Source: a virus
IMG/VR virus record: IMGVR_UViG_3300033144_006696
Coordinates: 1 to 64,000 of that record
Length of the DNA: 64,000 nt
Strand: one strand, 5' to 3'
Position 1 is the first letter of the stretch; each line of letters opens with the position of its first letter. This document shows positions 6,985-40,191 of this stretch, piece after piece. Under the pieces are notes generated by a model. It ran no database searches. It had not been told where the DNA came from and was given only the letters and a program-made list of their open reading frames with translations. Both the position numbers and the translations under genes were made by a program.

Positions 6985-7455
6985 TCAATTAAGACATTGT
7001 TCCGCTGCAAGATGATGACAAATAGCTTCATTAAAATCTTTGTATTGTCCGAAATTTGTCTTTTTATTATTTACTGTGATATAAGATTTATATTTTGATC
7101 TTTTATTTTTACATACACCTTTAACTCCACTTTTATTGTTTTTTAAATTTCTTATATTTCGTGTATTATATTGTTGTGATATTTCTCTGAGATTAGAAAT
7201 CCAATTATGGTGTTTTATTCTATCTTTATGATTAATATCATTTTCAGGCCAATACCCATAAATATATAACCAAGCCAAACGATGTGCAGTATAATTGTTT
7301 TTATTAATTGTTATCTAAATATATCCATCTGAATTTTTACATCCTGCAATATTTCCAATTTTAATTTTTCTTTTTGATACTTTCCATTTAAATATTCTGT
7401 TTAATGGATTGTAATTTAATTGTTTTTTCAATTCCTTGTATGTTAATTTTGCCAT
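6985..7455 (-). pseudogene. HNH-AP2 homing endonuclease broken by one TAG
   Basis: From the ATG at 7455 the frame reads as the N-terminal part of an HNH endonuclease (…NPLNRIFKWK… IAGCKNSDGYI) to a TAG at 7315-7317. It then continues in the same frame as ITINKNNYTAHRLAWLY, GYWPENDINHKD (HNH core) and a C-terminal AP2-like domain (NNKSGVKGVCKN). The only lesion is one codon, most simply CAG or AAG changed to TAG. The gene starts inside the upstream zinc-protein gene. TAG is a normal stop in other genes here, so readthrough is unlikely. Its C-terminal sequence is echoed by the fragment at 15202. Confidence 0.8.
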
Positions 7456-8037: not shown

Positions 8038-8736
8038 TTATTCTTCTTTTATTTTTCTGCGCTTCTTTGGTCTTGTATATGTTATATGTTTCCAAGTTTT
8101 TTTATTCCATATATTTCCCACTGTACCACCACTAACATTAAATAATCTACCAACTTCAGACTGTGTTAGTTTTTCTTTTAAACTTAATATTTTTTTAACT
8201 TCATATTCTGTAAGTTTTGCCTTTGTATTTTTTATCCCTCTTGCTGATCTTCCTTTATTTTTCATATCTTGAAAATTATCTATGTGAGTTCCAAGAAATA
8301 AATGATCTGGATTTATGCATTTAGGATTATCACATGTATGACATACCTGTTTATCTTTTGGATCAATTCCTTTTAGATACTTGAATACGTATCTTGAAGC
8401 TAATGGTGATTCTTTGCTACGTGTACCACTTATTCTTGCATATCCTTTTATAAGTGATTTTGTCCAATTCCAGCAATTTGTTTTTGGGTCAATTTCAATT
8501 CTTGAAATTACAAAATCTTTATGTGATTGTTTATTTTTATTTTTTTTACCATTTTTTGATCTTGCTTCCAGAGCAAGACAGCCACAAGATTGTGTTTTTC
8601 CTACCCCACGAACTATTGCTGTTTTTCCACAATCACATTTACATTCCCAAAAAGTACATTGATTTTTTATATATGCTAATTTTATAAATGTTAATCTTCC
8701 ACGTTTTATTCCTGTTAGTTCTAACCTTTTACTCAT
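8038..8736 (-). CDS. HNH homing endonuclease, 232 aa
   Basis: Layout: N-terminal zinc-binding segment (FWECKCDCG … SCGCLALEA, residues ~30-60); an HNH core around residues 120-155 with ASRYVFKYLKG, CHTCDNPKCINPDHLFLG and HIDNFQDM; then a C-terminal helix-turn-helix (TQSEVGRLFNVSGGTVGNIW). Such free-standing nucleases cut homing sites in related phages and copy themselves in. The start used is the ATG at 8736, with GGGGA upstream inside the end of the helicase gene; it overlaps the helicase stop region and is probably translated with it. Intact, no missing core residue. Confidence 0.85.
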   Translation of the reverse strand: MSKRLELTGIKRGRLTFIKLAYIKNQCTFWECKCDCGKTAIVRGVGKTQSCGCLALEARSKNGKKNKNKQSHKDFVISRIEIDPKTNCWNWTKSLIKGYARISGTRSKESPLASRYVFKYLKGIDPKDKQVCHTCDNPKCINPDHLFLGTHIDNFQDMKNKGRSARGIKNTKAKLTEYEVKKILSLKEKLTQSEVGRLFNVSGGTVGNIWNKKTWKHITYTRPKKRRKIKEE

Positions 8737-8738
8737 GA

Positions 8739-11096
8739 TCATCCCCACTCATCTTTATAAATTTTATTACGTGAATAACCAGAGTATTTTAGAATACGCA
8801 CATTTTCATCTCGAAAATCAATGACTCTCGGTGTTTTATTTTTGTCTGGACGTAAAATTCTGCCAATGCTCTGTATTACCCTACCCTTCCACTTTACAGG
8901 AGTAGTTAAACACAAACAAGACAAACTGTCAAGTGAGAACCCTTCCCCGATTAATGAGAGTGTTGACAATAGAACCCTACATTTATTATTTTTCATATCT
9001 TTAATAATTTGTTTTCTTTTTTTGGATGCTGTTTTTCCAGAAACAACTAAATGATTAATTTTTATACTGTTTAACAATTTTGATAATGTATTTAAATGGT
9101 TCACCCTATCAGAAACAACTAAAATATTTCCATTATTATTTTTTATATCTGCATGGATTGTACGAACTATTAATTCATTCCTTTTTGGATCTTCCGTCAA
9201 TTTCTTAATGATAGTTGCGTATGGCATTTGATCCTCATCAATGAAACTTCTTGCTGCCCTAAAATTTGTTTTCACAAGAATAATTTGAGGTTTTAACACT
9301 TGTCCTTTTTCAAACAATAACTTCTTATCTACAGTATGGAGTTTGGGTCCCATATGCACATAGATTGCCCCTCCAAGACCATCTTTTCTGTAAGGTGTTG
9401 CAGATAATCCCATATAATGTTTTGCAGGGAATTGAATCAACGTATCGGACCATGTGTCGCTGGTTACACGATGACAGTTATGAACCAAAATGCCATTTGC
9501 AAAGTAGTTATTGTTGTCCTCAACTTCTATATTATAGACATAACCATCTGGACACACTTTTCCAAATTCTGATCCACTTCTGCGTTTGTGAACCGTAACA
9601 CTTTCCACCCTTTCCATTTTAAGAGAGATTCTTTCTTTCTGTCTAATTTCTTTCTTTGAATTGAATTGTGACTCTTTCCATCTATTTCTATTGCAATCTT
9701 CAATTTTCGATTTCCTAAATCCACTTTGTATACTTGTGGTACTTTCTTTTTCCGACACCACGCATGTTTGTTTCCATTGACATGATCTGCTGTTTTTACA
9801 GGTATTTCCATTTCCCATCCAAGTGCAATTGCCATTTTTTCTTGTTGGGGAGTCGGTCCAGTTCCGTTCCCACCTCTTGCTCCAAGCCATACATTGAATG
9901 TTCCATTTATTCTCCTCTTGGATTTCATTTTTTCTATGTTTAATGATGAGTGCATTGGGTTCGTTTCTGTCATCCGTTTGCTGTTGGCTCTCCTGGCCTG
10001 TTTTGATTTTGAATATAGGATTGTAGCTTTCATTCCACACTCCGGTGTGCAATATACATTTTTGTTTTGATTTGCTCTTTTTCTCTGATAAGGTGTTTTG
10101 CACTCTATAATTTTTTTGCAACTTGGACAAACGGTCATGATCTTTTTCATTTTGTTCTCCTTTTAAAATAGTATACTCTGTGGCTAACACAGAGTTATCA
10201 TTTAATTCGGAGGCTGTCAAGTACTCATTTCCATCAAAGAATGTGTGATTTGTTGTGCATACATTCTTTTTGCCATTTTTTAATTTCACAGTACATAGTG
10301 TATCAGGTTTATGTTTAAATACATTGAGAACTTTTTTCAATTCTATTAGATTTGTTTCATGGTTAAAACTATTTACATAATCACCAATCTTTATTGTTTC
10401 AATTGGCTTATCTCCAATTAATGTGCCTGCAATAAAACATTCGTCGCAAATTATATGGCCAAATTTACGTTCAAGTTCAGGCATTTTATTTTTTACCGTA
10501 TTGATTATTCCCACAGAGACATCTTTGATATTAAATTTCCCATCACCGATTATTCCACAGTCATAATCAAGAAACTTCTTGATTGATTCTTGCCATTGAT
10601 ACAGTAATTCTTTTGTATGAATTATTATTAATGTTGGTTGTTTTCTTTTTGCAATTACAGCGATAGCTATTATTGTTTTGCCTGAACCTGTATTTGCTTT
10701 AAGAACACCTATTGGATATCTCCGAATAATATCATTTACTGCAATTTCTTGGTAATCCCTTAACTTACCTTGAAACTTCAGATTTATTCCAGGTAGAGTC
10801 AAGGTTCTATCATCAATCTTAACTGGATAACCATTGTTTTTGAGCCATTTTTTCATGACCCAAATATAACCTCTTGGTGACCATATAATTTTACCATCGC
10901 GTGATACGGCAAAATATCTTATTTTTTCTGGTATGTCTGATGACACATAAGACCCAAATCTTATTGCATCATCGTAAGCTTTATTTTTGTATGTTAAATC
11001 TGAAAATAATTTCCTCATCGCCTCTTCATCTAAACCATAGTAGCGGCAGCCTTTGCCGATTTGTATGGTAACTGTATTTTTACCATTCTCCATCAT
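8739..11096 (-). CDS. DEAD-like SF2 DNA helicase with an intein in motif II
   Basis: Motifs in order: Walker A with TGSGKT near residue 140; motif II split as DE | intein | CH; motif III LSATP; motif V region LIGEGFSLDSL; motif VI QSIGRILRP. Without the 321-residue intein the host protein is ~464 residues, normal for phage UvsW/RecG-like or replicative SF2 helicases. It would unwind DNA in phage replication together with the primase at 3902. The start is uncertain: the ATG at 11096 (MMENGK) lies inside the end of the upstream small gene and has no clear ribosome site, suggesting coupling. Activity requires protein splicing, since the intein separates the catalytic acid pair from the following Cys-His. 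Confidence 0.88.
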   Translation of the reverse strand: MMENGKNTVTIQIGKGCRYYGLDEEAMRKLFSDLTYKNKAYDDAIRFGSYVSSDIPEKIRYFAVSRDGKIIWSPRGYIWVMKKWLKNNGYPVKIDDRTLTLPGINLKFQGKLRDYQEIAVNDIIRRYPIGVLKANTGSGKTIIAIAVIAKRKQPTLIIIHTKELLYQWQESIKKFLDYDCGIIGDGKFNIKDVSVGIINTVKNKMPELERKFGHIICDECFIAGTLIGDKPIETIKIGDYVNSFNHETNLIELKKVLNVFKHKPDTLCTVKLKNGKKNVCTTNHTFFDGNEYLTASELNDNSVLATEYTILKGEQNEKDHDRLSKLQKNYRVQNTLSEKKSKSKQKCILHTGVWNESYNPIFKIKTGQESQQQTDDRNEPNALIIKHRKNEIQEENKWNIQCMAWSKRWERNWTDSPTRKNGNCTWMGNGNTCKNSRSCQWKQTCVVSEKESTTSIQSGFRKSKIEDCNRNRWKESQFNSKKEIRQKERISLKMERVESVTVHKRRSGSEFGKVCPDGYVYNIEVEDNNNYFANGILVHNCHRVTSDTWSDTLIQFPAKHYMGLSATPYRKDGLGGAIYVHMGPKLHTVDKKLLFEKGQVLKPQIILVKTNFRAARSFIDEDQMPYATIIKKLTEDPKRNELIVRTIHADIKNNNGNILVVSDRVNHLNTLSKLLNSIKINHLVVSGKTASKKRKQIIKDMKNNKCRVLLSTLSLIGEGFSLDSLSCLCLTTPVKWKGRVIQSIGRILRPDKNKTPRVIDFRDENVRILKYSGYSRNKIYKDEWG
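9477..10439 (-). mobile_element. Intein in the helicase (DE|intein|CH), with no in-frame endonuclease
   Basis: The N-terminal Hint block begins at the catalytic Cys (CFIAGTLIGDKPIETIKIGD). Block B has TTNHTFF with its conserved His. The C-terminal blocks read YVYNIEVEDNNNYFANG and end in VHN before the extein Cys, so all splicing residues are present. The 321 residues comprise ~95 N-terminal and ~26 C-terminal splicing residues. The ~200 in between show no endonuclease motif in this frame; they are the frame-shadow of the overlapping nuclease gene at 9527-10150. Insertion in motif II of a helicase is a common intein site. Confidence 0.9.
9527..10150 (-). CDS. Vsr-like (DUF559-type) homing endonuclease nested out of frame in the helicase intein
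   Basis: A 207-residue frame on the same strand as the helicase but shifted by one base. An AAAAGGAG site lies a few bases before its ATG. The N-terminus has a zinc-finger-like CPSC…C…CTPEC; the C-terminal ~80 residues carry the nuclease core YKVDLGNRKLKIAIEIDG, then KSHNSIQRKKLDRKKE and GWKVLRFTNAEV, the EDxHD/PD-(D/E)xK pattern of Vsr-related homing nucleases such as the I-Bth0305I family. It ends inside the C-terminal splicing block of the intein (TAG at 9527-9529). It is expected to act as a separate protein that cuts intein-free helicase alleles. Confidence 0.85.
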   Translation of the reverse strand: MKKIMTVCPSCKKIIECKTPYQRKRANQNKNVYCTPECGMKATILYSKSKQARRANSKRMTETNPMHSSLNIEKMKSKRRINGTFNVWLGARGGNGTGPTPQQEKMAIALGWEMEIPVKTADHVNGNKHAWCRKKKVPQVYKVDLGNRKLKIAIEIDGKSHNSIQRKKLDRKKESLLKWKGWKVLRFTNAEVDQNLEKCVQMVMSII

Positions 11097-11289
11097 AATA
11101 ATTACCACTATCTTCATTTGATTCATTATCAATATCTTTTAAATTACCATGTGTGCTTATATCAAGAATAATAAAATTTTCTTGATCAATCCCTGTTTGT
11201 CTTTTTTCAGATTCTATAGCATTTTTATCAATTAATCTCAGTATTAATTCCGCAAATGCCCACATAAGTAAATCAACAATTAATCCCAT
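11080..11289 (-). CDS. Small protein, 69 aa, with a hydrophobic N-terminus
   Basis: Residues 2-20 (GLIVDLLMWAFAELILRL) are hydrophobic and could be a membrane anchor or amphipathic helix. The acidic C-terminus (NESNEDSGNYYDGEW) is soluble. AAAGGAA precedes the ATG. It overlaps the start of the helicase gene by ~17 bp, likely giving translational coupling to the helicase. No family recognised. Confidence 0.55.
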   Translation of the reverse strand: MGLIVDLLMWAFAELILRLIDKNAIESEKRQTGIDQENFIILDISTHGNLKDIDNESNEDSGNYYDGEW

Positions 11290-27294: not shown

Positions 27295-27970
27295 ATTAAA
27301 GAAAATAAAAAAAGAAAAAAGAAAAAAGAAAATACCTTCTCCTTTTACAAAGGAATTTTATGCCTCTATGTCACCTGAAGTAAAAAAGGCATATTTTGAT
27401 AAAAGAACAAAAAATAGAAAAAAAAATGGAGCTAAAACTCCTTCAAAGGGATTAAAGAAATTTTATGCCTCTATGTCTCCAGCAAAAAAGAAAAAGTTTT
27501 TTGATAAAATAATGAAAAATAGAAAAAAAAATGGAGCTAAAACTTCTTCAAAGGGATTGAAGGAATTTTATGCCTCTATGTCACCTGAAGTAAAAAAGGC
27601 ATATTTTGATAAAAGAACAAAAGCATCAGCAGAAACTAAAAAAAGGATTGGATATAAACCAGATCTAAAAGGATTAATTGCATATAGAAATAATATGACT
27701 TTAGCAGAAAAGAAGAAATTTTATAGCAAAAGAGCAAAAACTTTAAGAAAAACTAATGCAAAAAGAACACCGGAATCGAAAAAAGCACAAACTTCTAATG
27801 CAGTTAAAGCCAGAAAAGCAATTATTGCTACACCAGAAGGTAGAGCAAGATTAGCAGCAATAACCACTAAGAGTATATTGAAATCACAAAACTCTATAGT
27901 AATAAGAGATCTTCCAAGAATTAATGATTATGCAGGAAATATTACTTTTTCGGAGTATGAATCCTTATGA
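27287..27970 (+). CDS. Lysine-rich three-repeat protein between TerS and TerL, 227 aa
   Basis: After a poly-basic start there are three 35-residue repeats (KEFYASMSPEVKKAYFDKRT, then KNRKKNGAKTPSKGL) encoded at 27350-27454, 27455-27559 and 27560-27664. A diverged fourth unit and a basic tail follow. No catalytic motif. The repeats loosely recall the NUMOD-type DNA-binding modules of homing endonucleases, so it could be a nuclease-less remnant or a DNA-binding packaging accessory; neither is proven. It overlaps TerS at its start and TerL at its end by 4-8 bp, so it is translated with them. Confidence 0.65.
   Translation: MSKLKKIKKEKRKKKIPSPFTKEFYASMSPEVKKAYFDKRTKNRKKNGAKTPSKGLKKFYASMSPAKKKKFFDKIMKNRKKNGAKTSSKGLKEFYASMSPEVKKAYFDKRTKASAETKKRIGYKPDLKGLIAYRNNMTLAEKKKFYSKRAKTLRKTNAKRTPESKKAQTSNAVKARKAIIATPEGRARLAAITTKSILKSQNSIVIRDLPRINDYAGNITFSEYESL
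27350..27664 (+). repeat. 105-bp tandem coding repeat, three copies
   Basis: Units at 27350, 27455 and 27560. The first and third are nearly identical; the second has diverged. Confidence 0.85.
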
Positions 27971-30645
27971 GAAAAAAACCACCAGTAATTTGGAAACCAT
28001 GGCCTGGAGCACAGCAGAGATTTTTGACTTGTCCTGTATGGGAATGCTTACTCCATGGCAACCGGGGCGGCGGGAAGACGGATGTGCTGATAATGGATTA
28101 TTTGCAAAATGTAGGAAAGGGGTTTGGAGCTGACTATAAAGGACTATTGCTTAGAGAGGCTACTACAGAACTCGGGGATGTGATTTCTAAAACAAAGAAA
28201 TGGATTCCAAGAATTTTTCCAATGGCAAAATTCAATAATTCTAAAAAAGTATGGACTTTTCCAGAAGGAGAAACACTATGGTTGAATTATGCAAGAGTAG
28301 ATGTGGATTATGAACAATACCACGGACATGAGTTTTGTTACGATAGTGACACAGAAATTCTTTTACCTGATAAGCAGCAGAAAAAAGCTAAAAATATAAA
28401 AATTGGTGATTTAGTTCAGACTTTACAGGGACCGAAAAAAATCACCAAAATTTTTAAATCAAAAAAGATAGGTGTTAAAGTTTCTGCTTTAGATGAGGAT
28501 TTGAATTTAATAAGTCAGCAACAGCAAGCTTTAACACATTCTGTTTTGACCAACGACGGATGGCAACGGATAGGGTTGTCCTGCTTGTTTCAAGTTTCTG
28601 AGCAATCTGAAGTTGGGAAACATTATTTAAAAGAAGTTTCTCAATTTCTTTTTGGTGTGCATCAAGAAATCCTGGCGGCTTCGCAGTTGAACCTTTGCTT
28701 GGTAGAGTTCCATTCCATTTCTGCAAATATCTCCAAATGGTATTCTTGTTTGTGTCAAATTTTTTCCCAATTTCTACATTTGATAATTTCATACTCTTCA
28801 TTTTCAAAATCTCAGATTTGTGAACTTCAAGAAAGCCTATTGGCTTGCCGCTTTGAAAAAGTTTTGGGAATCTTCGATAAAGAGTGGAAACATGAACACC
28901 AAATATTTCTGCAACTTCTTCAGCACTGTTCTTTTTTAATAGATCTTGCACATCAATTTCAAGCATCTTATTTTCATCAAAGGCTGTCCATTGTATGTCA
29001 TATTTTTGAATTATCTTCTTTACTAAAGATTCAGAAATGTCCAATAAATCAGCAGCAATATTCCTTGAAATACTATTATTCTTTGCAAATCCTTTTACTT
29101 TCTGAATTAATTCGGGATTATGATGCATTGAATGGTACTTACCAAGATGTTCAGCATGATCTTTACAGAGTATTAGATTATCAGGATGATTGTTTGAAGG
29201 ATTCTTATCATCATGGTGCGGAATTTCACCAGGAAGTAGAAAACGATTTAATTTCTGCTCCATCACAAATCTGTGTTCAAAAATACAACCTCCTTTCTGT
29301 GCATAAGGATGATTTGGGCACTTTAACAGAATGTAGCCCTTCTTATCTGGAGAAAGTCTCTTATAGACAACCTTACTCTTATGAATTTTTTCAAACAACT
29401 GCTGCATTGAATCCTGTTTCTTTTTCCGTTTCCTCATTAGAGACTCCTATTGATATGGTTGATTTTGAAGTAGAAGATGCTCACCACTATTTAACATCAA
29501 TGAACAGTATCATAGATAATGAAAAGAGTCAAGATATATTTACTGTAAGTTCCAATTGCTATATTGGTTGGGAAGAAATAAGTAACCATGCTTTACCAAA
29601 CGTCTATTTAAAATTGATGTCTTGTAATCGTTCTTCAAATCCCAAAATACCATTGAAATATAGAGCAACATGTAATCCTAGCGGCCCAGGACATCAATGG
29701 TTAAAACGAAGGTTCATTGATGCAGGACCTCCAGGGAAAATTCAAAGAGAAAAATTAGAATTTGAATATCCTGATAAAAATGGAGAAATGACAAAAACTG
29801 AATTGACAGTAGCAAGAACTCATGTTCAAAGTTATCAATCAGAGAATAAATCATTAGCTGAAGCAGATCCTTTATACATGGCCAAAATCTTTTCACTTAC
29901 CCAAGATAATGAGATGTTAAGAAAGGCATGGATTGATGGAAGTTGGGATTTATTGATTGGTGGATTTTTCACTGATGTATGGGACCCTAAAATACACGTT
30001 CTTCCAAATTTTAAACCACCAAAATCTTGGAAACTTTTTAGGAGTTTTGATTGGGGTTCTTCTAAGCCATGGGCAGTCACTTACGGAGCAGAATGTAATG
30101 GTGAACAACCAATTCCAATTGATGTTGATTTGCCATATTTTCCAAAAGGATCAGTTGTTATTTTAAATGAAATTTATGGGTGGACAGGAATTCCAAATGA
30201 GGGTGATCAAGCAATATCTTCTGAGATTGCTGAAAGGGTTTTAGCTGTTGACAATGTTTTATTTGGTGAGTATGCTATGAAAGTTATACCTGGACCTGCT
30301 GATTCTGCAATTTGGGCTGTTATTGATGGGACTTCAATTGGTGCTGCATTGACAAATTCTGGATGTAATTGGACAAGAGCGCATAAAGGACCAGGATCAA
30401 GAGTAGCTGGATGGTCAATTATTAGACAAATGTTAGGAGCAGCAAAAAGGAAAGATCTTGAACGACCACATTTATATTTCTTTCAGCAAGCAGAACACCA
30501 TATTAGAACTTTGCCATTACAACAAAGAGACAAGAAAAAACCTGAAGATCTTCAAACCGATGGGGAAGATCACATTTGTGACAGTTTACGGTATCTTTTG
30601 TCACGTAAAATGACAACAATGAAAAGACGAAAGGTAGGTATTTGA
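27967..30645 (+). CDS. terL: Terminase large subunit with an intein in the Walker B motif
   Basis: ATPase: Walker A-like GNRGGGKT at residues 31-38; Walker B split as GHEF | intein | CYIGWEE; the coupling motif region is ATCNPSG. Nuclease: RSFDWGSSKP, GPADSAIW and the acidic DGEDHICDSLRYLL toward the C-terminus. Without the 407-residue intein the protein is 485 residues, normal for TerL. It packages DNA into the procapsid and cuts it. The ATG overlaps the stop of the upstream gene. Splicing must occur for ATPase function, because the intein separates the hydrophobic strand from the catalytic carboxylates. Confidence 0.93.
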   Translation: MRKKPPVIWKPWPGAQQRFLTCPVWECLLHGNRGGGKTDVLIMDYLQNVGKGFGADYKGLLLREATTELGDVISKTKKWIPRIFPMAKFNNSKKVWTFPEGETLWLNYARVDVDYEQYHGHEFCYDSDTEILLPDKQQKKAKNIKIGDLVQTLQGPKKITKIFKSKKIGVKVSALDEDLNLISQQQQALTHSVLTNDGWQRIGLSCLFQVSEQSEVGKHYLKEVSQFLFGVHQEILAASQLNLCLVEFHSISANISKWYSCLCQIFSQFLHLIISYSSFSKSQICELQESLLACRFEKVLGIFDKEWKHEHQIFLQLLQHCSFLIDLAHQFQASYFHQRLSIVCHIFELSSLLKIQKCPINQQQYSLKYYYSLQILLLSELIRDYDALNGTYQDVQHDLYRVLDYQDDCLKDSYHHGAEFHQEVENDLISAPSQICVQKYNLLSVHKDDLGTLTECSPSYLEKVSYRQPYSYEFFQTTAALNPVSFSVSSLETPIDMVDFEVEDAHHYLTSMNSIIDNEKSQDIFTVSSNCYIGWEEISNHALPNVYLKLMSCNRSSNPKIPLKYRATCNPSGPGHQWLKRRFIDAGPPGKIQREKLEFEYPDKNGEMTKTELTVARTHVQSYQSENKSLAEADPLYMAKIFSLTQDNEMLRKAWIDGSWDLLIGGFFTDVWDPKIHVLPNFKPPKSWKLFRSFDWGSSKPWAVTYGAECNGEQPIPIDVDLPYFPKGSVVILNEIYGWTGIPNEGDQAISSEIAERVLAVDNVLFGEYAMKVIPGPADSAIWAVIDGTSIGAALTNSGCNWTRAHKGPGSRVAGWSIIRQMLGAAKRKDLERPHLYFFQQAEHHIRTLPLQQRDKKKPEDLQTDGEDHICDSLRYLLSRKMTTMKRRKVGI
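28336..29556 (+). mobile_element. Intein in TerL with no in-frame endonuclease
   Basis: It begins at Cys1 (CYDSDTEILLPDKQQKKAKN, then IKIGD). Block B is seen in ALTHSVLTNDGW. The C-terminal blocks run MVDFEVEDAHHYLTS and end TVSSN before the extein Cys; the usual penultimate His is Ser here. In this frame the ~300 central residues are S/L/Q/F-rich with no nuclease motif. They are the reverse shadow of an antisense HNH gene (28475-29437). Its boundaries match the conserved gap in TerL Walker B exactly. Confidence 0.88.
28475..29437 (-). CDS. HNH homing endonuclease encoded antisense inside the TerL intein
   Basis: Minus-strand frame of 320 residues with its own AGGAG site six bases before the ATG. 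HNH domain at residues ~40-105: GYILLKCPNHPYAQKGG, EHRFVMEQKL, PHHDDKNPSNNHPDNLILC, then DHAEHLGKYHSMHH. The C-terminal 200 residues hold repeated helix-turn-helix units, for example LSNVEIGKKFDTNKNTIWRY and LQIAQKLETSRTTLSVAIRR, for target recognition. The sense frame (TerL) remains open throughout. Expected role: cut intein-less terL alleles and spread the intein. Transcription would need a leftward promoter; none is obvious. Confidence 0.85.
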   Translation of the reverse strand: MRKRKKKQDSMQQLFEKIHKSKVVYKRLSPDKKGYILLKCPNHPYAQKGGCIFEHRFVMEQKLNRFLLPGEIPHHDDKNPSNNHPDNLILCKDHAEHLGKYHSMHHNPELIQKVKGFAKNNSISRNIAADLLDISESLVKKIIQKYDIQWTAFDENKMLEIDVQDLLKKNSAEEVAEIFGVHVSTLYRRFPKLFQSGKPIGFLEVHKSEILKMKSMKLSNVEIGKKFDTNKNTIWRYLQKWNGTLPSKGSTAKPPGFLDAHQKEIEKLLLNNVSQLQIAQKLETSRTTLSVAIRRWSKQNVLKLAVADLLNSNPHLKQKL

Positions 30646-30722: not shown

Positions 30723-31298
30723 ATGAAAAGAGTTAAAATTATTTCAGATACAATTCAAGAGTTTTGGGAGAGATATTATTTTTGTGGTAATTATTTTCAA
30801 AAGAATGGTAAAAGATTGCATAGAGAAGTTTGGAAATTCTATAAAGGAGAAATTCCCAAAGGTTTTATAGTACATCACATAAAAGAGGATAAATCTAAAA
30901 ATCAAATTGAAGATTTTGAGCTTATGATAAGAGCAAAACATGTATTACATCACATTAAAAAAAGAAAACCCATTCCAATTACTAAACAATGTAGGGAAGC
31001 AGCAAACAAATGGCATGGTAGTGAAGATGGTAGAAAATGGCATAATAAACATTATGAAAATACTAAAAAAAATTTACAAAAAAAGATAGAAAGGGAATGT
31101 TCTTGGTGTGGTGAAATTTTTGAAAGCAAAAGAAAAAATGTAGATGTATTTTGTTCTGGAAAATGTAGAACAGCCAGCAGGAAGGCTTCTGGAATTGATG
31201 ATATTGAAAAAATATGTGAAGTATGTTCTAAATTTTATATGGCAAATAAATATTCAAAGGTGAAAACTTGTTCAAAGATTTGTAAACGTAAACTTTAA
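30723..31298 (+). CDS. Free-standing HNH endonuclease with C-terminal zinc fingers, 191 aa
   Basis: HNH core: RLHREVWKFYKGEIPKGFIV, then HHIKEDKSKNQIEDFEL and the final H of LHHIKKR. Two C-terminal Cys4-type fingers (CSWCGEIFES … CSGKC; CEVCSKFY … CSKIC) probably read DNA. A very strong AAAGGAGG site and a near-perfect TATAAT suggest independent expression. It is inserted between terL and the portal genes without harming either. Intact. Confidence 0.85.
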   Translation: MKRVKIISDTIQEFWERYYFCGNYFQKNGKRLHREVWKFYKGEIPKGFIVHHIKEDKSKNQIEDFELMIRAKHVLHHIKKRKPIPITKQCREAANKWHGSEDGRKWHNKHYENTKKNLQKKIERECSWCGEIFESKRKNVDVFCSGKCRTASRKASGIDDIEKICEVCSKFYMANKYSKVKTCSKICKRKL

Positions 31299-39520: not shown

Positions 39521-39574
39521 ATGGTAAATACTTCAAACAATTATAGTCTTCTCCTAATTTTTGTGATATACTAA
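39521..39574 (+). pseudogene. Duplicated 5' end of the tail-tube gene
   Basis: An AGGAAGG ribosome site, ATG and MVNTSNNYSL, then unrelated LLIFVIY and TAA. The intact tail-tube gene at 40215 starts MAVSPNTDNYSLGKG, sharing NYSL and the DNA segment ACAATTATAG. The simplest reading is that the endonuclease element inserted after codon ~10 of the tube gene and the downstream part acquired a new start. Confidence 0.6.
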
Positions 39575-39581
39575 TGCAAAC

Positions 39582-39636
39582 TACAGTGGATAGGATCGCA
39601 TCCGAAAAGTGGCATCTCAACCACCCCTCCACTGTA
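39582..39636 (+). ncRNA. 55-nt three-way-junction RNA, copy B
   Basis: A closing stem TACAGTGGA (39582-39590)/TCCACTGTA (39628-39636) encloses a GGAU/AUCC hairpin with a CGC loop, GAAA, and a GUGG…CCAC hairpin with CUCA in its loop. It shares UAGG, UCGC, GAAA, UGG and CUCA-CCA with copy A while all three stems differ in sequence but remain paired. It lies 40 nt before the HNH gene start. Confidence 0.7.
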
Positions 39637-39675
39637 CTTCTTTTTGAGAATATTGCTATGAGAGGTAATATTAAT

Positions 39676-40191
39676 ATGATTTACAAAGATTTGCCAAGAG
39701 CTGATTATCTTAGATCCATTTTTAATTACAACAAAAAGACTGGAAAATTAATCTGGAAAAAGAAAACTGCTAATTGTGTTAAGATTGGAACTGAGGCAGG
39801 GTTTGTATCAGGCAGAACTGGAAGATTGCAAGTTTCTATAAAAGGTGAAGTTTTTTATGTTCCAAGAATTATTTGGAAAATGGTAAAAGGCAGAATTCCA
39901 AATTATAAACAAATTGATCATGATGATAGAAATCCTCTTAATAATGCTTGGGATAATTTGTCTTTGAAAACCCAGTCAGAAAATATGAAAAATTCTTCAC
40001 TTCAACGTAATAACACATCAGGTATTGTTGGTGTAAATTTTCATAAATTTTCTGGGTTATGGAAAGGTAGTATTTCTAATAATAAGAAAATAGAAACAGT
40101 ATATTTTAAAACCATGGATGAAGCCATAGATTGGAGGAGAAGCAAAGAAAGAGAGTATGGATTTCATAAGAACCATGGAAAGACTTTCTAA
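39676..40191 (+). CDS. HNH-AP2 homing endonuclease, 171 aa
   Basis: The start at 39676 follows GAGAGGT. N-terminal LRSIFNYNKKTGKLIWKKKT; HNH core with QVSIKGEVFYVPRIIWKMVK, IDHDDRNPLNNAWDNLSL; then the C-terminal AP2 DNA-binding segment (NTSGIVGVNFHKFSGLWKGS). It is intact, unlike the related gene at 6985. It sits inside a duplicated tail-tube start, so it probably targets that gene in other phages. Confidence 0.85.
   Translation: MIYKDLPRADYLRSIFNYNKKTGKLIWKKKTANCVKIGTEAGFVSGRTGRLQVSIKGEVFYVPRIIWKMVKGRIPNYKQIDHDDRNPLNNAWDNLSLKTQSENMKNSSLQRNNTSGIVGVNFHKFSGLWKGSISNNKKIETVYFKTMDEAIDWRRSKEREYGFHKNHGKTF

Follow-up and report, generated by a model that had tools for sequence, protein, structure and literature searches.

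An intein-like insert in a phage terminase gene with an HNH nuclease gene on its opposite strand

A terminase gene and a nuclease gene share one insert

The gene for the terminase large subunit (TerL) of the phage described here is open through a 407-codon insert that bears the signature of an intein, and the opposite strand of the same insert encodes a conserved HNH nuclease. At the level of sequence this architecture is real, conserved and recurrent, with dozens of other phages harboring it, including laboratory isolates. It very likely corresponds to a mobile intein that encodes its splicing protein on one strand and, as a separate product, its homing endonuclease on the other; that the intein splices, that the antisense strand is transcribed and that the nuclease cuts the empty site are inferences. 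Standard inteins have a nuclease fused in frame, lack one, or are split around one.

The phage is represented by positions 1 to 64,000 of IMG/VR virus record IMGVR_UViG_3300033144_006696, and this whole stretch of 64,000 nucleotides is called the window. An earlier reading of the bare sequence, made without database searches (the sequence-only reading), had placed an antisense nuclease inside a TerL intein, and its coordinates, lengths, TerL, intein and antisense reading frames and AGGAG site all held. The features of the locus are as follows.

27967..30645, plus strand: TerL gene, 892 aa, a single open frame across the intein; PHROG terminase large subunit, E=4e-21
27967-28335, plus strand: N-extein, flanking the TerL intein
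28336..29556, plus strand: intein, 407 codons, beginning with C and ending with N, inserted between YHGHEF and CYIGWEE
29557-30645, plus strand: C-extein, flanking the TerL intein
28336..28377, plus strand: block A, the N-terminal splicing block, from Cys1; intein alignment and Vint/Hint matches
28516..28566, plus strand: block B region (QQQALTHSVLTNDGWQ), with the invariant His68 at 28537-28539; overlaps the 3' end of the nuclease gene
29452..29493, plus strand: block F (DMVDFEVEDAHHYL); intein alignment
29548..29556, plus strand: block G, SSN, followed by Cys+1
28475..29437, minus strand: gene of the putative antisense homing endonuclease, a 320-aa protein with an HNH and helix-turn-helix repeats; model mean pLDDT 76.6
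29132..29350, minus strand: HNH core, residues ~30-102; PF13392, with H55 R56, H74 H75, N87 and H97 invariant in the alignment
28538..29080, minus strand: helix-turn-helix DNA-binding region, residues ~120-300; HTH_23, E=2e-13, and model helices
29444..29448, minus strand: AGGAG ribosome-binding site of the nuclease gene, 6 nt 5' of the ATG; equivalents in all intact relatives
29527..29532, minus strand: TTGACT, resembling a -35 element, within the long linker between blocks F and G; only weakly supported as an antisense promoter

The sense frame

The sense frame carries an intein signature because it combines the terminal motifs, an invariant block-B histidine, a predicted Hint fold and a Cys or Ser at +1 that is linked to the insert. 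Position 1 is Cys in the window and Ser in other lineages with an insert at the same site, thus providing the nucleophile of a class 1 intein, and all same-site members end in N|C or N|S, that is, in a terminal Asn followed by Cys or Ser. Cys/Ser1, the block-B His, block F, the terminal Asn and Cys/Ser+1 are conserved in every member of this family, referred to here as the GHEF-site family. The sequence-only reading had named Cys1, a THSVLT block B and a terminal Asn-Cys as splicing blocks: the first and the last held, but THSVLT does not fit the canonical TxxH of block B: in the alignment, position H-3 relative to the invariant His is Ala in the window and Gly in relatives, in place of the expected Thr. 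The penultimate intein residue is Ser in the window and Ser, Gln or another residue across the family, rather than His. A penultimate His in block G is common in inteins, but not universal, and its absence does not exclude an intein.

In a structure model of the intein, residues 1-80 form confident beta structure and further strands lie near 362-381. The middle is modelled with low confidence, and the two ends are predicted to form a Hint fold. Comparison of the sense frame with known inteins, a check that the sequence-only reading had proposed, gave intein structures as the best PDB matches: the top Foldseek match is the gp41-1 intein (E=5e-4, probability 1.00), and inteins such as PI-SceI and DnaB come next. 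Single-protein Pfam matches of the GHEF-site inteins to Hint models remain under the curated cut-offs, and a profile search of the PDB with the intein returned a designed repeat protein through low complexity and matched gp41-1 only weakly.

The antisense frame

The antisense frame encodes a conserved HNH nuclease with a Shine-Dalgarno sequence before every intact copy; that the protein cuts DNA is inferred. Comparison with HNH proteins, also proposed beforehand, gave matches to PF13392 and to a PHROG HNH family (E=4e-16) with invariant HNH residues, so that both the motif and the DNA-binding modules of such an enzyme are present. A Foldseek search with the nuclease model found no significant match. 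The sequence-only reading had further claimed that the nuclease C-terminus overlaps block B and that its start lies near the C-terminal blocks, and this held: the nuclease stop codon falls at intein codon 47, which places His68 of block B within the overlap, and 17 bp separate the ATG from the codons of block F. TTGACT is found at an equivalent position of the F-G linker in four lineages; promoter-like and consensus sites are no commoner on the antisense strand than in shuffled sequences, and no convincing promoter was found there.

Relatives at the same TerL site

An insert at the same TerL position is found in L003/L025, L027, L028, L031, L033, L036, L058-L061 and L067, giving a set of eight lineages in 12 contigs when the window is included. 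The TerL frame is open and the HNH protein antisense in all of them. These 12 contigs come from separate metagenomes and show neither a nuclease in the TerL frame nor a shifted assembly, findings that would have counted against the sequence-only reading; an assembly artefact is ruled out by them together with cultured phages of the same layout. A group I intron is likewise ruled out, since the frame is open and no Rfam match was obtained.

The nuclease frame is intact in 7 of the 8 lineages, so the outcome that would have refuted the sequence-only reading, an antisense frame broken in all relatives while the sense frame is kept, is not observed. The exception is L027/L028, where the nuclease start is lost and an internal stop is present while the TerL frame is still open; this is likely to be the decay stage expected in the homing cycle of mobile elements. 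Part of the N-terminal region is lost in L003.

Other relatives (L026, L029, L030, L034, L035, L037, and L038) have an empty site, and the junction of empty-site relatives reads GHEYPWIGWEE. The +1 residue is Cys or Ser where the insert is present, and Pro or Val in these empty-site relatives; conceivably, the element brings its own +1 nucleophile. The placement of L058 differs between the intein and TerL trees, a clash with strong support, and no fewer than three gains or losses are required. This clash, the sporadic presence of the insert and the insert-linked Cys/Ser+1 argue for the mobility of the element. None of 622 INPHARED TerL records matches the insert, and the bacterial genomes scanned with the GHEF-site nuclease family gave no match.

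Two observations can be added on individual contigs. In L067 (2089-7167), a single TerL gene apparently harbors four inteins, one of which holds the antisense nuclease. Contig L024 is identical to the C-extein of the window and stops at the intein boundary, a few bases into that extein, which might reflect a mixture of intein-plus and intein-minus phages in one sample.

Is the double open frame due to chance?

A stop arises in the TerL frame wherever the nuclease strand reads TT, TC or CT followed by A over a codon boundary. The expected number of such stops was obtained from 20,000 synonymous re-encodings per nuclease with two codon tables, for the window, L003, L031, L033 and L036. For the window nuclease, re-encoding gives a mean of 14.6-16.7 TerL-frame stops and a minimum of 4, against none observed; all five nucleases have 0 stops against 11-22 expected, the lowest trial giving 2. 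L058 and L067 also have none, compared with 12.8 and 16.3 expected. In the reverse test, re-encoding of the intein peptide predicts about 13-15 stops in the nuclease frame (mean 13.4, minimum 5), and again none is observed. In the phase used, none of 16 control genes stays open for more than 77 codons, and stops occur at 0.072 per codon. Finally, none of the 81 Phe codons of seven nucleases is followed by a codon starting with A, though about one-third of codons do so, an absence that matters because the pair would force a TerL-frame stop. A chance open frame is ruled out by the simulations and the control genes.

Two alternatives are addressed by these results. One is that a single frame, nuclease or TerL, is real and the other is a by-product of codon bias. 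Long chance antisense frames do exist in some genes and phases, with 149 open codons reached in one other phase of the controls, but the phase used here does not exceed 77 codons in those genes, the nuclease has homologues, catalytic residues and a ribosome-binding site, and the TerL exteins need the sense frame. This alternative can be set aside almost entirely.

The other is a split (fractured) intein, in which the TerL halves would be made apart and joined in trans, the nuclease being free-standing between them and the sense frame incidental. Fractured phage genes, with a nuclease gene between the halves of a split intein, were reportedly described by Dassa et al. 2009 (cited in PMC10448857). 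However, stops would then be free to accumulate in the sense frame, and in every lineage none is seen where 11-22 are expected; the interrupted host frame that defines a fractured gene is absent, as the host frame is open in all copies found. A split intein is thus virtually excluded.

Constraint on the two strands

Since codon position 3 of the antisense frame opposes position 2 of the sense frame, position profiles separate the two frames. Across most of the overlap, the nuclease shows variation of about 0.5 at position 3, like ordinary genes, and less at positions 1 and 2, which indicates that the nuclease is under purifying selection and that the sense peptide is there merely kept open. 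In the last quarter of the nuclease, opposite block B, position-3 differences fall to 0.20-0.27 for most pairs among the window, L003, L028 and L031. Synonymous differences are 0.22-0.25 in this last quarter and 0.20 in the first eighth, as against 0.38-0.56 in the middle of the gene and 0.33-0.55 in TerL. L033-L036 is the sole pair without this drop.

All 960 bp avoid stops; at the amino-acid level, it is mainly near the splicing blocks that both frames are constrained. The claim that both strands are constrained over about 960 bp held in part, stop avoidance extending throughout and amino-acid constraint lying near the splicing blocks; the synonymous-rate depletion proposed as its test is seen there and is not evenly spread.

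A further possibility is that the nuclease is out of use, these being decaying inteins that are kept merely because precise loss is rare. The broken L027/L028 nuclease and the partial loss in L003 are in its favor. Against it, 7 of 8 GHEF-site lineages and nearly all copies of the second family described below are full-length with catalytic residues and ribosome-binding sites, and the codon positions indicate purifying selection. We consider this reading very improbable.

A second antisense family at the TerL Walker A site

A second family (L004, L005) came to light when HNH relatives were examined for frames on the opposite strand, and a subsequent scan gave 24 IMG/VR loci.

L004, L005, L070-L097, L099-L101: Walker A family loci, from metagenomes, cultured phages and bacterial contigs

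In 25 of the 25 loci examined, an intein interrupts the TerL Walker A motif (GPVG, then C...HHN, then SGK). It is 283-300 aa long, contains an antisense HNH protein of 232-242 aa, and has canonical ends, HHN followed by S or T. All 24 copies tested have 0 host-frame stops, compared with 4.6-9.7 expected, and Pfam Intein_splicing (PF14890) is matched by 11/11 aligned inteins. Nearly all the nucleases are full-length, with catalytic residues and ribosome-binding sites, and their synonymous differences drop from 0.45-0.69 to 0.17-0.23 in the last quarter, TerL having 0.58.

Cultured phages examined that harbor this family include Pectobacterium phages Taid and Abuela, Dickeya phage Setonix and Pseudoalteromonas phage PHS3; the nuclease is also found in five further Pectobacterium phages. 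In the GenBank record of PHS3, the antisense HNH protein (APC46236.1) is annotated beside a truncated TerL (APC46235.1), but the TerL frame is actually open across. The family also occurs in contigs filed under an uncultured actinobacterium, Enterobacter cloacae and Acinetobacter, and bacterial genomes scanned with its nuclease gave six loci.

The two antisense nuclease families have the HNH core alone in common (72 columns, 99.4%). The relative phase is identical in the two and is not the easiest available. A double-coded core common to both families is a possibility. A profile match between the two intein families was considered as Hint homology and set aside, being the sense-strand reflection of the common HNH core.

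The second family bears on the alternative that the GHEF-site insert is not an intein. According to this reading, an invading nuclease gene settled in TerL, and the strand opposite to it merely stays open, adding a tolerated extra loop, as in the ShiLan proposal discussed below. It is supported by that precedent of out-of-frame HNH insertions without splicing blocks (PMC11855218), by the weak Pfam support for the GHEF-site family, and by two loci, L008 and L012, with antisense HNH genes in a large gene lacking splicing blocks. Against it stand the splicing residues conserved in all members, the Foldseek best matches, all of which are inteins, the parallel Walker A family with its HHN|S/T ends and its 11/11 PF14890 matches, and the nature of TerL, which is essential and bears a large insert in its core. 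This explanation thus appears very unlikely.

Proposed mechanism and significance

In the preferred reading, that of a mobile intein, the TerL strand would be translated straight through the intein, and a Hint domain formed by the two intein ends would excise the 407-aa segment and ligate the TerL halves. The intein middle would be little more than a stop-free linker because its DNA serves to encode the nuclease. A separate message from the other strand would give a free HNH-HTH endonuclease, expected to cut intein-less TerL near the GHEF/CYIGWEE junction, and repair templated on the intein-bearing copy would install the intein together with its +1 Cys. The sequences establish that the frames are conserved and open beyond chance, with Hint-like and HNH signatures, conserved ribosome-binding sites, a patchy distribution and one decayed nuclease. 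Against the preferred reading can be listed the non-Thr block B, the Ser or Gln penultimate residue, the sub-cut-off Pfam matches, the poor middle of the model, the lack of a convincing promoter and the absence of expression, splicing or cleavage data. The suggestions of the sequence-only reading that the layout uncouples nuclease dose from TerL and protects TerL from an in-frame fusion are proposals only, with no supporting data.

A bolder reading, for which the arguments seem to us evenly balanced, is that inteins have repeatedly become strand-partitioned, with a free antisense nuclease under its own control, and that a double-coded HNH core moves between TerL sites. The nuclease promoter would perhaps lie in the unusually long F-G linker, and the moving HNH cassette would arrive with its antisense frame already open. 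If so, inteins with out-of-frame nucleases, antisense or same-strand, would be a common and overlooked class of phage mobile elements.

A splicing domain and a nuclease encoded on opposite strands of the same ~0.7-1 kb represent an unusually long and well-supported case of antisense double-coding. What pass for 'mini-inteins' with a long, featureless middle may be complete mobile elements with an unannotated nuclease, and the census of mobile inteins would therefore be biased. These loci, including those of cultured phages, provide natural systems for studying one sequence under two protein constraints, and for asking whether separating the nuclease from the host transcript alters homing.

Relation to known systems

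An antisense nuclease within an intein was not found in the literature searched, a search that did not cover a preprint on non-canonical actinobacteriophage inteins (Gosselin et al. 2025, cited in PMC11855218). The title and citation of that preprint suggest unusual intein-nuclease layouts, perhaps including same-strand out-of-frame cases. The claim that the layout is undescribed thus held for the antisense arrangement within this literature; the layout is not unique, belonging to a wider group of inteins with out-of-frame nucleases.

The closest published case found is the ShiLan domain, which was described together with the Pacc40 insertion in methylases of actinobacteriophages, where the HNH lies out of frame (Arsenault, Gosselin, Gogarten 2025, PMC11855218). 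In both ShiLan and the TerL element, a homing HNH is hidden in another frame of an insert across which the host frame is open. By contrast, the ShiLan nuclease is on the same strand (third frame), with neither a splicing domain nor a detectable ribosome-binding site, whereas that of TerL is antisense, inside an intein, and preceded by a Shine-Dalgarno sequence. A ShiLan-type insert has no splicing domain in the host frame, and the splicing blocks of the TerL insert do not fit this definition.

Canonical inteins of the PI-SceI type, with an in-frame LAGLIDADG or HNH nuclease, likewise combine a Hint splicing domain and a homing nuclease in one element, but in TerL the other strand encodes the nuclease, as a protein of its own. 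As in fractured genes, the nuclease gene is a separate gene physically within the intein; unlike in those, the host frame is uninterrupted and double-coded. Nuclear rDNA group I introns can carry a homing gene on their antisense strand, and thus share with the TerL element an antisense homing gene within a self-splicing element. However, an intein requires an open sense frame through the gene, and an intron does not.

Same-strand and in-frame layouts

A second intein of the window, in a helicase gene, has its nuclease out of frame on the same strand.

8739-11132, minus strand: helicase gene
9477..10439, minus strand: second intein of the window, 321 aa, in the helicase gene; PF14890, E=3e-14
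9527..10150, minus strand: DUF559-type nuclease, 207 aa, on the same strand as the helicase intein and in another frame; PF04480, E=2e-12

The ATG of this nuclease has AAAAGGAG upstream, and the intein shows 0 host-frame stops compared with 11.7 expected. Helicase inteins of Vibrio phages CP-T1, 159E43-1b and 1.088.O and of Pseudomonas phage MR14 also contain a DUF559 homologue out of frame, the same-strand layout being unannotated there, and so does a clamp-loader intein (L042). TerL inteins with an HNH gene out of frame on the same strand are found in Acinetobacter phage Highwayman, Tetrasphaera phage TJE1 and a Rhodobacteraceae phage, as well as in several IMG/VR contigs.

L032 2163-2789, L036 5227-5826, L043-L047, L053, L054, L055: TerL inteins located close to the C-terminal end, each with an out-of-frame HNH on the same strand

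Most same-strand cases have fewer host-frame stops than expected, and only TJE1 and L055 could be due to chance. Finally, the phage genome of the window (L002, ~106.3 kb) also encodes a DNA polymerase A whose intein has a conventional in-frame HNH. With its TerL, helicase and DNA polymerase A inteins, one genome thus harbors antisense, same-strand out-of-frame and in-frame nucleases, and the phage offers a ready comparison of the three designs.

Some HNH genes were noted outside inteins. Those of L008 (3818-4306) and L012 (3722-4285) are antisense in very long frames of large phage genes in which splicing blocks are not visible, and might be an antisense counterpart of ShiLan. The window itself has free-standing HNH genes at 30723-31298, 39574-40191, 8038-8748 and 6985-7278. 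The one at 30723 is directly downstream of TerL, a place where relatives of the HNH proteins hidden in TerL are free-standing in Pseudomonas phage PAE1.
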